In this document: positions 4,004 to 63,937 of the stretch, in pieces | How the letters are laid out: every line of letters starts with the position of its first letter | Position numbering within the stretch: position 1 is the stretch's first letter | Source: Chlorobiota bacterium | GTDB lineage: Bacteria > Bacteroidota > Ignavibacteria > OLB7 | Reading direction: 5' to 3' | DNA: 64,000 nucleotides | Assembly (NCBI GenBank): GCA_016788565.1 | Contig: JAEUSP010000069.1 | Location: 1-64,000 of the forward strand | Notes under the pieces: generated by a model | Database searches by the model: none | Seen by the model: only the letters and a program-made list of their open reading frames with translations | What the model was told of the DNA's origin: nothing | Program-made: the position numbers and the translations under genes

Positions 4004-4171
4004 CGGTTATCGGGAATCGGGTTTCGGGAATCGGTTATCGGGAATCGGGTTTCGGGAATCGGTTATCGGGAATCGGTTGTCGGGAATCGGGTTTCGGGAA
4101 TCGGTTGTCGGGAATCAGGCTTCTGACAACTGACAACTGACAACTGACAACTGACCAATGACCAATGACTT
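4004..4171. repeat. Heptanucleotide tandem array, 24 units in one register
   Basis: From 4004 the sequence divides into 7-mers: CGGTTAT, CGGGAAT, CGGGTTT, CGGGAAT and so on (16 units of the form CGGNNNT to 4115). CAGGCTT follows, then CTGACAA four times, CTGACCA, ATGACCA and ATGACTT. The 7-nt register does not slip where the unit type changes from CGGNNNT to CTGACNN. The array occupies nearly the whole gap between the lipoprotein and glycosyltransferase genes. Confidence 0.9.
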
Positions 4172-5024: not shown

Positions 5025-5219
5025 CGGTTCAGCAATGTCCGTTCATCAGTGAAAGAAAGGGGAGGGGAATAACCCAAAGAATTAGTTAGCGCAGTGTTCT
5101 TGGCAGGCAACATACTTTCCCGCCCTCTGCCGAACAAGCCGTAACTTGCGCCACGTTGTTCACGATTGCGGGATTGCTCCCCACCAACTTTTACCTCACT
5201 CTCAACTCACACATTCATC

Positions 5220-5966
5220 ATGCAGCCATCCAACACTCTTCTTCAACGCCTTGCCAATGCCCGGTTGGTGGTGGTGTTCACCGGGGCCGGTGTCAGTGCC
5301 GAAAGCGGTATTTCCACCTTCCGTTCGCCGGACGGGTTGTGGGCAAAATTCAGCCCGCAGGAGCTTGCCAACGTTGACGCTTTTTTGCGCAACCCGCAGC
5401 TTGTTTGGGAATGGTACCAAGCCCGCCGCCAAGCCATGACGCAGGCCCAGCCAAACGCTGGCCATCGCGCCATTGCCGCTCTGGAAACGCTGATCCCGAA
5501 GGTTGTGGTCATCACCCAAAACATTGATGGCCTTCACGCCCGCGCCGGGTCGGGCGATGTGATTGAGCTTCACGGAAGCGCGCTCCGCAATTTCTGCATC
5601 CAGTGCCGCCGCCGCTACGATGACCCCGCGTTGTTAACGCTGCAAGAAGTCCAGCAATGCCAGTGCGGTGGGTTCATCCGCCCCGATGTTGTTTGGTTTG
5701 GCGAGATGCTTCCCGCCGACGCTGTGGAGCGCGCGTGGCAGCTTGCCGCCGAAGCAACGGTCCTTTTCTCGGTTGGCACTTCATCGCTGGTGTGGCCGGC
5801 GGCTGAGTTGCCGTTTGTGGCTTTGGAGAATGGGGGATACGTGGTTGAGATCAACACCGAAACAACCCCGCTAACCCCGAAGGCCCACGAACATCTCCCA
5901 TTCCCCAGCGGAGCCGTGCTGCCGGAGATTGTGGGGATGTTGAGAACGATGAAAGAGGAGGGATGA
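5220..5966 (+). CDS. cobB: Sirtuin-family NAD-dependent protein deacylase
   Basis: This 248-residue class III deacylase removes acyl groups from lysines using NAD+, releasing nicotinamide and O-acyl-ADP-ribose. It has the NAD-binding motif GAGVSAESGISTFRSPDGLW, the TQNIDGLH motif, the catalytic His in VIELHGS, a zinc-binding set CIQC...CQCG, then RPDVVWFGEMLP and GTSSLVWPAAELP. The length is normal for bacterial CobB. I start at ATG 5220; an earlier in-frame ATG at 5166 adds a Thr/Ser-rich, non-conserved extension. It converges with the aminotransferase gene with a gap of 17 bp. Confidence 0.95.
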   Translation: MQPSNTLLQRLANARLVVVFTGAGVSAESGISTFRSPDGLWAKFSPQELANVDAFLRNPQLVWEWYQARRQAMTQAQPNAGHRAIAALETLIPKVVVITQNIDGLHARAGSGDVIELHGSALRNFCIQCRRRYDDPALLTLQEVQQCQCGGFIRPDVVWFGEMLPADAVERAWQLAAEATVLFSVGTSSLVWPAAELPFVALENGGYVVEINTETTPLTPKAHEHLPFPSGAVLPEIVGMLRTMKEEG

Positions 5967-5983: not shown

Positions 5984-7138
5984 TCACAACGTCTTCCGAA
6001 TTTCCCGCAGCCCAGCCAGCAGCCGCTCAACATCTTCCCAGGTGTTGTAGCCCTGCACAGCAATCCGAATTGCCCAGCGGCCTTGCCAGGGGAAGGTGGG
6101 AATCTCCACCAGATGCTCGCTGAACAACCGTGAGTGAAGCAGGTCGCCGGGCAGACCTTCCGGCAGCAGGAACGCGCTCATCTGCCGGAACCATTGGCGG
6201 TCGTCGGGGCAGATCGGGGTGGCATCTAACGCGGCGGCAATTTCTGGGCGCGCCTGCCGCACAATCTGGTGGCACCCCTCGGCCACCGCTGGCCAATCGT
6301 TCTCCCCAAAAAACTGGATTGCCGCCGGAACCGAAAGCGGGGCCGAGATGTCGCTGGTTCCGCCGTACTCCAAGTAATCCAAAAACTGAGATCCCTTGCT
6401 GAACGGCCCGTTCCACCCCCAGCTTATCACCAACGGCTCCAGCTGTTCTTGCAACTCGCGTCGGGCGTACAGAAACGCAGCCCCTTTTGGCGCGCACAGC
6501 CACTTGTGAAGATTCCCCGTGTAGAAATCAGCGTCCAATTCCCGAAGGTCCAGCGGCAGTTGCCCGGGAACGTGGGCACCATCCACCACCGTGATAATTC
6601 CGCGCTGGCGGGCAATCTGGCAAAGCTGGGGGACGGGGAAGGTAAGCCCCGTTGGCGAGGTGATGTGGCTGATAAATATCACCCGCGTTTGTGGCGTAAT
6701 CTGGGCAACGAACCGCTCCAAAAAATCATCGTGCGTTGTCACCGGAACCGGAATTTCAACAGCCCGATAGCTGAACCCTTGCTTGCCGGAAAGGAACCTC
6801 CAGATGTTGTCGCAAGCGCCGTACTCATGGTTGGTGGTCAGCACCTCATCCCCCGCGCCAAGCTGAAGCGAACGGGCCACAATGTTCACCCCGGTGGTTG
6901 CGTTGGTGATATAGACCAAGTCATCGGGGTCGGCATTCAGAAACTGCCCCAACTCCATCCGCGATTGGCGAAGCAACTCCGGGGCGCGGCGGCCCAAAAA
7001 ATCTACTGGCTCCAGCTCAAGCTCGCGTTGCCATTTTTGGTAGCGTTCAAACACGGGGCGGGGGGTTGCGCCAAAGGAGCCATGGTTCAGGAATGCAACA
7101 TCGGGGCGAAGAAGGAACTGGGAACGGAGATTGTTCAT
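5984..7138 (-). CDS. PLP-dependent class V aminotransferase (isopenicillin N epimerase-like)
   Basis: This 384-residue fold-type I PLP enzyme begins FLNHGSFGATPRPVFERY, typical of the CefD / cysteine desulfurase branch. It has ITNATTGVNIVARSL (phosphate cup), HITSPTGLTFP, VVDGAHVPGQLPLDL (the Asp that contacts the pyridine N) and NLHKWLCAPKGAAFLY, where the Lys forms the Schiff base. The CefD-like group includes epimerases, ergothionase-like lyases and cysteine lyases, so the substrate is unknown. It lies directly downstream of the four lipoprotein paralogues on the same strand. Confidence 0.85.
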   Translation of the reverse strand: MNNLRSQFLLRPDVAFLNHGSFGATPRPVFERYQKWQRELELEPVDFLGRRAPELLRQSRMELGQFLNADPDDLVYITNATTGVNIVARSLQLGAGDEVLTTNHEYGACDNIWRFLSGKQGFSYRAVEIPVPVTTHDDFLERFVAQITPQTRVIFISHITSPTGLTFPVPQLCQIARQRGIITVVDGAHVPGQLPLDLRELDADFYTGNLHKWLCAPKGAAFLYARRELQEQLEPLVISWGWNGPFSKGSQFLDYLEYGGTSDISAPLSVPAAIQFFGENDWPAVAEGCHQIVRQARPEIAAALDATPICPDDRQWFRQMSAFLLPEGLPGDLLHSRLFSEHLVEIPTFPWQGRWAIRIAVQGYNTWEDVERLLAGLREIRKTL

Positions 7139-9335: not shown

Positions 9336-10163
9336 TTAGCTGTTGGGCTTCTTTGTTGTTGGTTGTTTTGCGGCATCGGCCGGGGCCGCCGGGGCTGCCG
9401 CTGCGGTTGCCGAATCCCCTTTCACCACACGCACCGTTTTGAACAGCAGGTTGCACAGGTGTATCTCCACCGGCTTGTTCCCCATGGCTGCGGTCAGCCC
9501 CTGGGCGAACTTCTGGCTGCGCTGCAAAAAGTCAGGATTGTTCTCTGTTCCGCTTTTCACCATGATGCGGAAGGCGTAACGTCCATCGCTCCCTTTTTGC
9601 AACTGTGCCGTTTCCGGGCTTTTGCCGAAGTACCCAATTTTCACCAAGTAGCTGCCAACGGTTTTGGCTTCGTCGGGGGTGATGTTGTTGCCGATGTACA
9701 GGTCGCTTGAGCCAAACCCAACACGCCGCCCGTAGTAGGTTGGGGGGAAGGTTTTCAGGGTGTTGAAATCATCATCGCAAAGATCAATCTGGACCTTGCC
9801 ATCGTTAAACGCCAGTTTGGAGAGCTGGAGGTTGTAGTTGATAAGCCAAACTTTGAACGTCGGATCGTTCACTTTGCCGGCATCCTCCACCAAGCGGAAT
9901 TTCCAGAGTGCCCCGGCTTTATCAAGCTGCGCTTTCCATTCTTTATCAGTAAAGTGGCTTGATTTCTGGAGCGTTTCCGCCAGTTTTTTGGCTTCGTCTT
10001 CGGTGACGTTTTCGGTGTAGTACAGCGTCCCTTTCCCAACCTCTAGCTCCTTGCCATGCTTGCTGCATCCGCTAGCAGCAATGCCAAGCAGCAACAGCAG
10101 GCCAAGGATAGTGGTGGAACGGAAAACCAAAGCGGACCGCGCCGCACTTGTCAGATTCTGCAT
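9336..10163 (-). CDS. Lipoprotein with two tandem YYTxxVTE-type domains (paralogue 1 of 4)
   Basis: This 275-residue lipoprotein (lipobox LLGIAASGC) is a two-domain member of the local family. Domain 1 runs from KGTLYYTENVTEDEAKKLAE to VQIDLCDDDFNTLKTF; domain 2 runs from SSDLYIGNNITPDEAKTVGS to VEIHLCNLLFKTVRVV. The tail is rich in Ala, Pro and Lys. It is the first gene of the four-gene same-strand series (9336, 8340, 7847, 7198). With two double and two single versions side by side, local duplication followed by domain fusion or loss is the simplest explanation. Confidence 0.85.
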   Translation of the reverse strand: MQNLTSAARSALVFRSTTILGLLLLLGIAASGCSKHGKELEVGKGTLYYTENVTEDEAKKLAETLQKSSHFTDKEWKAQLDKAGALWKFRLVEDAGKVNDPTFKVWLINYNLQLSKLAFNDGKVQIDLCDDDFNTLKTFPPTYYGRRVGFGSSDLYIGNNITPDEAKTVGSYLVKIGYFGKSPETAQLQKGSDGRYAFRIMVKSGTENNPDFLQRSQKFAQGLTAAMGNKPVEIHLCNLLFKTVRVVKGDSATAAAAPAAPADAAKQPTTKKPNS

Positions 10164-23778: not shown

Positions 23779-23870
23779 TGCAGAACGGACGGTTGTGAAT
23801 TGCGTTGTGGAAAAAAATGAGATTGCGTGCGCTTCCGCGTACAGAACGTGAGCGAACGACGATACTCCAA

Positions 23871-23911
23871 CTCTCTTTTCTCCCCTCTGTGTTCTCTGTG
23901 CCTCTGTGGTT
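23871..23911. repeat. Solo copy of the CACAGAG repeat (end of the GxxExxY cassette)
   Basis: On the minus strand it reads AACCACAGAGGCACAGAG, then AACACAGAGGGGAGAAAAGAGAG. This matches both ends of the GxxExxY cassette at 63369-63414 and 63861-63915. It lies between the ComM and PhnD-PhnC genes, with no nuclease gene attached. Confidence 0.8.
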
Positions 23912-26385: not shown

Positions 26386-26439
26386 TTGAGTGCCATTAGC
26401 AATCTCACTCAAAGAAAAATTTCACTCTCTTCTTTGCAA

Positions 26440-26474
26440 CTGACTACTGACCACTGACCACTGACTAATGACCC
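26440..26474. repeat. Heptamer array CTGACNN, 5 units
   Basis: The units CTGACTA, CTGACCA, CTGACCA, CTGACTA and ATGACCC are in register. This unit family also follows the CGGNNNT array at 4123. The 261-bp gap 26271-26531 holds only these two arrays. Confidence 0.85.
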
Positions 26475-30469: not shown

Positions 30470-30944
30470 TTTTCAATGGGGCATTTTTTTTCTGTCAGTG
30501 GTCAGTGGTCAGTCGTCAGTTGCAAGAGTTAATTCGGCATTTGGCATTCCCTGAATGGATTGTGGTCATTAGTCAGTGGTCAGTTGCAAGAACCAATTTG
30601 ATTTTTGGCATTCGACATTCGGCACTGTATGGTTCCCGATTATTGGCGGCTGATTCTTTCACGCAATCGTTTTATTCCACCGCCGCAACCAGCATGGAAC
30701 TTTCGGCGCAAGGTTGGTGTAGCTGTGGGGCACGTTGCGCGGGCGGGGGCGTGTGTGGAAGCGGGTGCAGTTCGGGTATTTGCTTCCCCCTTTTCCTTCC
30801 GTACTTTCGCGCTTCGCAATTCGGAATTCGGAATAGCAGGGTAGGCTTTGTGAGTAGGCTTTGTCGGTCGCGCACCAATGCACCCAACGTGCGGCACTGC
30901 TTCCGTTCCCCGCTGGCGGGTTCAACTAAATTTCCAAATCAATC
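30470..30944. other. Intergenic region with heptamer-like repeats
   Basis: GTCAGTG/GTCAGTT units lie at ~30494-30521 and GTCATTA, GTCAGTG and GTCAGTT at ~30565-30585. CATTCGA/CATTCGG units follow near 30610. The rest, up to the peptidase gene, contains no gene I can support; the plus-strand frame across it translates the repeats. Confidence 0.7.
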
Positions 30945-34174: not shown

Positions 34175-34262
34175 AGTGAAGAGTGAAGAGTGAAGAGTGA
34201 AATGAAGCCAAAGCCGGCAACTCACCACTGACTACTGACTACTGACTACTGACCAATGACCA
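34175..34262. repeat. Two heptamer arrays (AGTGAAG x4 and CTGACTA/CTGACCA x5)
   Basis: AGTGAAG units run 34175-34202. CTGACTA (three units), CTGACCA and ATGACCA run 34228-34262. The last unit contains an in-frame ATG (34256) for the DUF4153 gene. A CCCCTCACCCCCCGCCC motif precedes them at ~34118-34134. Confidence 0.85.
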
Positions 34263-63277: not shown

Positions 63278-63303
63278 TCTGCATATTCTCCGTCGTAAAC
63301 AAA

Positions 63304-63354
63304 ACAACGGCATGGCAAGGATGATGAAACCTTGCTGTGCCGTTGTTTGTTTTT
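63304..63354 (+). terminator. Intrinsic terminator with U-run
   Basis: ACAACGGCATGGCAAGG pairs with CCTTGCTGTGCCGTTGT (one mismatch), followed by a T-rich run, 26 bp after the T9SS gene stop. Confidence 0.85.
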
Positions 63355-63368
63355 TCGGGGGGGGAATG

Positions 63369-63915
63369 AACCACAGAGACACAGAGGTCACAGAGGGGGG
63401 AGAAGAGAGGGGAGGTTATAGGATGATTCTGCGAATTCCATTTTTTAGGGCAGCGACGTTAAAGTTGATGAGAAGGCCGAGCTGAAGACCAGTTATCCGA
63501 AGGTATGTCATAAGCTGTGCCTCGAATAATGGGGTGATGCCGTCGGTGGCTTTTAGCTCAACAACCACTTTGTTGCGAACGATGAAATCCGCACGATAGG
63601 CAACCTGAACGTCGCTCCCTTTATACAGGAAAGGCAAAGCTACTTGCTGCGTAAATGGAATATGCCTAAGTGATAATTCGCGCGCCAAACAGGCTTGATA
63701 CGCTGACTCTAACAACCCCGGTCCAATAATTTTATGGACTTCAATTGCTGCTCCAATCACCTCGCGGGTTGTCTCGGAAGCATAGCCATCGCCTGCAAAC
63801 TCAGCAATCAGATACTCATCCATATCTACACACCTTTTTCGCCAAAAGTATGGATAATCCCCTTCTCTCTTCTTCTCTCTTTTCTCCCCTCTGTGCTCTC
63901 TGTGTCTCTGTGGTT
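63369..63915. mobile_element. GxxExxY-nuclease cassette bounded by CACAGAG inverted repeats
   Basis: Left end (63369-63414) reads AACCACAGAGACACAGAG, GTCACAGAG, then a GGGGAGAAGAGAG purine run. The right end (63915 back to 63861, minus strand) reads the same AACCACAGAGACACAGAG, AGCACAGAG, then GGGGAGAAAAGAGAG. The two ends are therefore ~46-55-bp inverted repeats around the GxxExxY gene. The left repeat ends at the gene's stop codon. A solo copy of the repeat lies at 23871-23911. I see no target-site duplication. Confidence 0.75.
63416..63823 (-). CDS. GxxExxY family protein (PD-(D/E)XK nuclease superfamily)
   Basis: This 135-residue protein has the family motif G36-L-L-E39-S-A-Y42. The core ADFIVRNKVVVELKA has Asp79, Glu89 and Lys91, the PD-(D/E)XK catalytic set, and it ends [19 protein letters not shown]. 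The family is placed in the PDDEXK_3 group; its biological role is unknown. ATG 63823 starts the conserved part. The longer frame from 63925 would translate the right inverted repeat (RHREHRGEKREKKREG) and is not used. It lies wholly between two inverted CACAGAG-type repeats, which suggests that gene and repeats move together. Confidence 0.85.
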   Translation of the reverse strand: MDEYLIAEFAGDGYASETTREVIGAAIEVHKIIGPGLLESAYQACLARELSLRHIPFTQQVALPFLYKGSDVQVAYRADFIVRNKVVVELKATDGITPLFEAQLMTYLRITGLQLGLLINFNVAALKNGIRRIIL

Positions 63916-63937
63916 TTTTTTTCAAGCCAACGTGACG

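Follow-up and report, generated by a model that had tools for sequence, protein, structure and literature searches.

A GxxExxY nuclease gene between inverted heptamer arrays: an apparently unreported nuclease-plus-repeat element

Introduction

In REP/RAYT (TnpA_REP) systems one small gene lies between two inverted repeats. The REPs are scattered between genes, with tens to hundreds of copies per genome, single and as inverted doublets. Their copy number is linked to the RAYT gene, and the repeat type follows the protein type (PMC2817692, PMC8266576). Rpn/YhgA-like PDDEXK proteins are, according to their abstracts, small PD-(D/E)XK nucleases linked to DNA mobility; a flanking cognate repeat is not described in these abstracts (PMC5350276). 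STRR-type repeats of cyanobacteria and Beggiatoaceae are arrays of the heptamer TAACTGA (PMC4679880).

The literature search covered open-licence PMC papers. Nearest to the pairing described here are the REP/RAYT and Rpn papers. GxxExxY is mentioned in this literature, never in connection with repeats; the repeat words are absent, and a GxxExxY-repeat pairing is not described.

The locus compared here lies in the window, the whole 64,000-nt stretch of DNA analysed, from a genome designated G000. It comprises the following features.

63369..63415, plus strand: left arm, 3' of the gene; heptamer array AACCACAGAG-A-CACAGAG-GT-CACAGAG with purine-rich tail, up to the stop codon
63416..63823, minus strand: GxxExxY / PDDEXK_3 nuclease gene, 135 codons, ATG at 63823
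63856..63915, minus strand: right arm, 5' of the gene; inverted copy of the left arm, inside a 169-aa frame

Results

Nuclease gene and protein

The GxxExxY family is annotated by motif only. The window gene clearly belongs to it and has an intact active site; it matches PF13366 (2.4e-41, 141 bits, curated cut-off 22), its only Pfam match, and TIGR04256 (2.2e-42, 144 bits, curated cut-off 35). Its length of 135 codons agrees with the initial annotation; the true start is likely the ATG at 63823, with AAAGGTG just upstream. The stop codon (63416-63418) follows the left repeat immediately, so that the repeat does end exactly there, as had been noted. The longest open frame at the locus has 169 aa (63416-63925) and starts inside the right repeat (MKKKPQRHREHRGEKREKK...); since it begins within the right arm, its basic N-terminus is translated repeat. 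Read-through of this kind accounts for the long annotated N-termini of GxxExxY proteins, as earlier proposed, and explains a frequent annotation error in which the repeat is translated as an N-terminal extension.

The active site is of the type E...D...ExK. The annotated residues D79, E89 and K91 are present. D79 does not vary among 103 relatives, and E39, E89 and K91 are each kept in 90% or more of them, a conservation indicating that selection maintains a working enzyme. One cysteine occurs in the 135 aa. The AlphaFold2 model (pLDDT 92) has the predicted fold of a PD-(D/E)XK nuclease, with Cas4 nuclease SSO0001 (4ic1) as the nearest solved fold (Z 9.7 over 100 residues; Foldseek E 1.7e-3). 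No sequence relatives were found in the PDB. There is no match to PADLOC models at E 0.1, so by PADLOC the protein does not belong to a known anti-phage defence system, and none to PHROGs. Phage or plasmid cargo was ruled out, relatives being absent from all 50,697 phage records and present in just 8 of the 72,556 plasmid records.

Inverted arms in the window

The inverted CACAGAG repeats reported around the gene are borne out: the arms (63369-63428 and 63856-63915) are 60 nt long, 78% complementary and 427 nt apart. Both contain AACCACAGAGACACAGAG and a purine-rich inner half. The gene has a flank-to-flank inverted score of 34; the 99th percentile of 568 control ORFs is 18. The locus does not fit a DDE insertion sequence or its MITE in that no DDE transposase lies between the arms; the sole gene there is the PD-(D/E)XK nuclease. 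Between the left arm and the T9SS-type gene upstream lies a strong terminator-like inverted repeat with 24-nt arms (63297-63353).

Arms of GxxExxY genes across phyla

The survey comprised 108 distinct GxxExxY loci from the window's own genome, its own phylum, Chloroflexota with other bacteria, and Pseudomonadota (the phylum of the Rhodocyclales genome G150). The own phylum is probably Bacteroidota, to judge from type-9-secretion-like C-termini. The loci are the best-scoring family members, some from sister species. The common motif of the arms is the heptamer C-R-C-R-R-A-K (CACAGAG, CGCAAAG, CACGAAG, CACGGAT and others). At least two inward heptamers on both sides were present at 63 of the 108 genes and at none of 1,103 control ORFs: 2/4 in the own genome, 28/50 in the own phylum, 11/25 in Chloroflexota and others, 22/29 in Pseudomonadota. 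At least one on each side was found at 84/108 genes and 43/1,103 control ORFs. Heptamers in the wrong orientation occurred at five of the 108 loci. When flank-to-flank inverted similarity was scored without any motif, 35 of the 54 genes from the own phylum exceeded the 99th percentile of the 568 control ORFs (MWU p = 3e-32). Inverted repeats are therefore far more frequent at GxxExxY genes than at controls. The initial statement that these genes commonly carry the repeat holds for frequency but not for spelling, the motif being a CRCRRAK array and not CACAGAG alone.

About one fifth of the 108 loci have another motif or no clear one. Loci without CRCRRAK often have other inverted arms, e.g. 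CACATAG in Flavobacterium. GxxExxY genes of Prevotellaceae and Muribaculaceae (L044 3001-3336, L045 3001-3336) lie between directly repeated elements, GGCGGATTAAGCGGATTATAAAGATT ... AATTCGCCGACA, which have inverted ends of their own, a different arrangement. At the Pseudomonadota loci L214-L241 many GxxExxY genes are co-directional inside housekeeping operons, at trpD-trpC, upstream of a dihydroorotase-like gene and upstream of a sufC-like gene. Locus L363 (G076:C1:794600-796800) is a tandem array; every unit of ~300 bp contains a CGCAAAG heptamer array and a ACATAGACACATAG motif.

Arm anatomy and heptamer spelling

Each arm has 2-4 modules, spaced 8-10 nt start to start (mode 9). Similarity between arms starts sharply at TTAAC|CRCRRAK and is absent further outward. 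Heptamer positions agree between the two arms (0.81-1.00 in the first module), spacers much less (~0.5), a pattern that a binding site would give but a mere palindrome would not.

Spelling was compared with a tree of 90 proteins, using 200 free and 200 within-phylum shuffles. Heptamer base 7 (G / not G) changes twice on the protein tree against 20.7 changes expected; the shuffle minima are 17 (free) and 16 (within-phylum). The tree mixes phyla, with 12 changes of phylum label. Most T-type loci form one clade (98% support) that spans two phyla. Covariation with the tree also holds for bases 2, 4 and 5 (17, 11 and 16 changes vs 29.0, 20.6 and 24.9 expected). Because base 7 follows the protein tree despite the mixed phyla, the nuclease probably reads the heptamer; this agreement is the strongest evidence for reading by the nuclease itself, and the spelling as a whole probably reflects its DNA recognition. 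T106/N, I110/A, L37/F, S40/K, R77/F-Y, N122/G and a gap at N128 separate the base-7 groups, as candidates only, since any clade difference would show up.

Dispersed copies in the genome of the window

A pattern search for the strict core CACAGAG[AG]CACAGAG gave 86 distinct copies in the 4.58-Mb genome. Only two flank the window gene; 84 lie elsewhere. One copy without a gene lies in the window itself.

~23870..23911, minus strand: solo repeat copy without gene (pattern match 23894-23908; locus L079)

The repeat unit is ~45-60 nt long, gaagagaaagAACCACAGAGrCACAGAGnnCACAGAGggaagaaagagag. Copies are mostly single; the remainder pair up as inverted copies, in either orientation and mostly with 30-80 nt between them, and some of these pairs fold as long hairpins (z -7.2). 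L003, a second GxxExxY gene in G000, lies between inverted copies of a different repeat, GTTCACGCAAAGACGCAAAG...CACGCAAAG, a family that also has a solo copy in the genome. A further GxxExxY gene (L004) has AGGATT-type repeats upstream.

Genome G148 (JADZEY010000075.1), a MAG labelled Armatimonadetes, is ~84-88% identical to G000 over long syntenic stretches; its public label is probably wrong. Seven of the eight repeat sites with both flanks found in G148 are vacant there (~84-88% identity), which shows turnover of the repeat, with exact junctions not placeable because the intergenic DNA is too diverged. The nuclease gene itself is at the orthologous place in G148 (L035).

Other heptamer repeats of the STRR kind occur in G000, GTCAGTT/GTCAGTG and CTAATGA (loci L096-L115), with 17-18 matches per word in a 400-kb sample. 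In the window they lie at 4129-4157, 26439-26466, 30494-30521 and 34227-34254. A search of G000 for XisH as partner gene of these repeats gave no match; the controls gave none either. Another dispersed intergenic repeat, CTCCGCTCATGCTGAGCC-CGTCGAAGTATGAGCG, has ~15-18 matches in the 400-kb sample and lies on L101 at ~5200-5240, 6190-6230 and 9780-9820. Dispersed repeats such as this one probably caused two high control scores in the inverted-flank test.

Copy number and presence of the gene

Excess copies were defined as at least five copies of CRCRRAGNCRCRRAG over a reversed-pattern control. In the own phylum (148 genomes) 27 of the 75 genomes with the gene had them, as did 2 of the 73 without it (Fisher 1.4e-7); in a second phylum sample (200 genomes) the figures were 25 of 32 with the gene and 8 of 168 without it (p = 7.5e-19). 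Both p-values overstate independence, because genomes within each group are related. The Spearman coefficient of the copy excess is 0.57 in the own-phylum sample. The highest copy number in the second sample is 357. Among its seven gene-bearing exceptions, G300 and G294 have T- or C-type heptamers and G311 a 1-nt spacer, and were missed because these are invisible to the CRCRRAGNCRCRRAG pattern. Many copies with no gene detected occur in G193, G264, G275 and G312; several such genomes may be incomplete MAGs or have lost the gene.

Site histories

At trpE-trpG, in the family of G150, the gene and both arrays are present in G150, G365, G410, G400, G359 and G432. In at least 12 relatives the junction is tight and lacks both gene and arrays. 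In some relatives (L262, L251) the gap holds a different small gene, for a DUF4160-like protein, which may make the junction a hot spot for insertion.

At trpD-trpC, in the family of G169, three states occur: empty, a gene-less two-arm palindrome, and gene with arms. The empty state has tight junctions of 7-27 nt (13 loci read); empty alleles carry no heptamer array, here or at trpE-trpG. The palindrome state (~87-136 nt, no gene) occurs in G348, G444, G276, G161, G447, G443 and G308. Gene-length inserts with arms occur in G169, G252, G450, G288 and G458 (intactness read in some only); G196 and G316 have broken nuclease genes. The arm spelling varies by genome (CACGAAG, CACAAAG, CGCAGAG), while within most loci both arms are spelled alike. 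In the closest pair of an empty and a palindrome locus the flanks are 90.5% identical, and the junction is not exactly placeable because the intergenic spacer is too different.

At other sites, internally deleted or truncated genes lie between arms in G176, G284 and G204, and hairpin doublets of the repeat occur in G025, G275 and G156. No offset or length stood out as a target-site duplication in 43 elements, none with a clean recent empty site, and no fresh insertion of the element was seen among the sites compared. From the sequences, the site states would fit gain of the whole unit, followed by decay of the gene inside lasting arms.

The empty sites sought in relatives thus exist at trpE-trpG and trpD-trpC, with gene and arms gone together. 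This joint presence and absence upholds part of the initial proposal that gene and repeats spread as one unit; the 84 of 86 copies that lie apart from the gene and the common gene-less two-arm copies speak against the remainder. They point to a repeat family with a partner gene, not to a cassette that only moves whole.

Discussion

The pairing of nuclease and repeat is very likely real and cognate, as judged from the comparisons above. The window gene with its arms is probably one member of a REP-like two-component family of nuclease and heptamer repeats. That the nuclease actively spreads or homogenises the repeats is favoured with moderate confidence. The small PD-(D/E)XK nuclease would recognise CRCRRAK arrays with modules ~9 nt apart, presumably one heptamer per monomer at about one helical turn. 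The array flanks its own gene in inverted orientation and also exists as many gene-less copies, single or palindromic. Cleavage by the nuclease would fall at the arms or close to them, probably as a hairpin or paired complex; host repair would then copy or re-insert the cut element or palindrome. Repeats may thereby be mobilised or homogenised in cis and in trans. Dead nuclease genes would decay within the arms and leave gene-less palindromes. TnpA_REP is thought to mobilise REPs in a comparable way. A lone PD-(D/E)XK nuclease can cut, but to our knowledge has no known way of joining DNA. The main weaknesses of an active role are the want of a target-site duplication, of a witnessed insertion and of a joining activity.

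The arrays may instead be operator or docking sites regulating the gene itself or others, the repeats being spread by an unrelated route. Arrays directly upstream of the start, sense-direction insertions in operons of Pseudomonadota and specificity covarying with the protein would all suit such a role; it is nevertheless unlikely in view of an equally good inverted array after the stop codon, of conserved catalytic residues, and of gene-less palindromes without an evident regulated gene, also in gene-less genomes. A homing-type drive, with solo arrays or empty alleles as targets of the cut and the arms as homology through which recombination copies the gene, is in agreement with arms that equal the dispersed copies and with empty and full alleles at the same site. 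Copies far outnumber genes, however (84 solo in G000, ~340 in some genomes), and under homing more of these copies should have been filled; homing also leaves multiplication of the target repeat unexplained, and the empty trp sites have no array. Homing of this type is therefore improbable, and nothing in the data points specifically to the homing- or TnpB-type function suggested initially.

It is very unlikely that another transposase or a host process (e.g. slippage, hairpin repair) makes the repeats, with the nuclease as cargo or acting against hairpins. Cargo would not give a heptamer spelling that tracks the cargo's protein tree across phyla, and flanking is too frequent, in several phyla, even though neither target-site duplication nor joining activity is evident, palindromes fold strongly as single strands and repeats persist without the gene in some genomes. 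Operator, homing and cargo models can each be entertained but explain less than a REP-like two-component family. In the broadest form of that preferred reading, put forward with slightly better than even confidence, GxxExxY nucleases serve a class of bacterial interspersed repeats that spans phyla and is so far undescribed, as a PD-(D/E)XK counterpart of REP/RAYT, each clade reading its own spelling (e.g. base 7 = G or T) and mobilising or homogenising arms, palindromes and its own gene.

A common gene family of no known function thereby gains a concrete, testable role, and a dispersed repeat class of many genomes a likely partner enzyme. If the nuclease does mobilise the repeats, a DNA repeat is spread by a stand-alone PD-(D/E)XK nuclease. 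The protein clades paired with heptamer spellings are a natural data set on DNA reading by a minimal nuclease.

Comparison with known systems

With Cas4 and other RecB-like PD-(D/E)XK nucleases the protein shares the fold only. Unlike Cas4, it has no Fe-S cysteines (one Cys vs a four-cysteine cluster) and no CRISPR context. Rpn/YhgA-like proteins belong to a different Pfam family, PF04754. STRR-type repeats are likewise intergenic heptamer arrays, sporadic across phyla, but are direct tandem arrays of a different word with no proven partner gene.

REP/RAYT is the closest counterpart. In both, a gene lies between two inverted copies of a dispersed repeat that is abundant, intergenic and found as inverted doublets (86 copies in G000; doublets in G025, G275, G156); copy number is linked to the gene, and spelling follows the protein. 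The enzyme differs, being a PD-(D/E)XK nuclease and not a Y1 HUH tyrosine transposase (PF01797), and the repeat lacks the GTAG or CGTC tag that marks REPs, consisting of an array of 2-4 heptamer modules that ends TTAACC. The nuclease-plus-repeat element is apparently widespread and unreported. Each known repeat-enzyme kind considered fails at a defining feature. In architecture and behaviour the element matches the REP/RAYT partnership, but with an unrelated enzyme.
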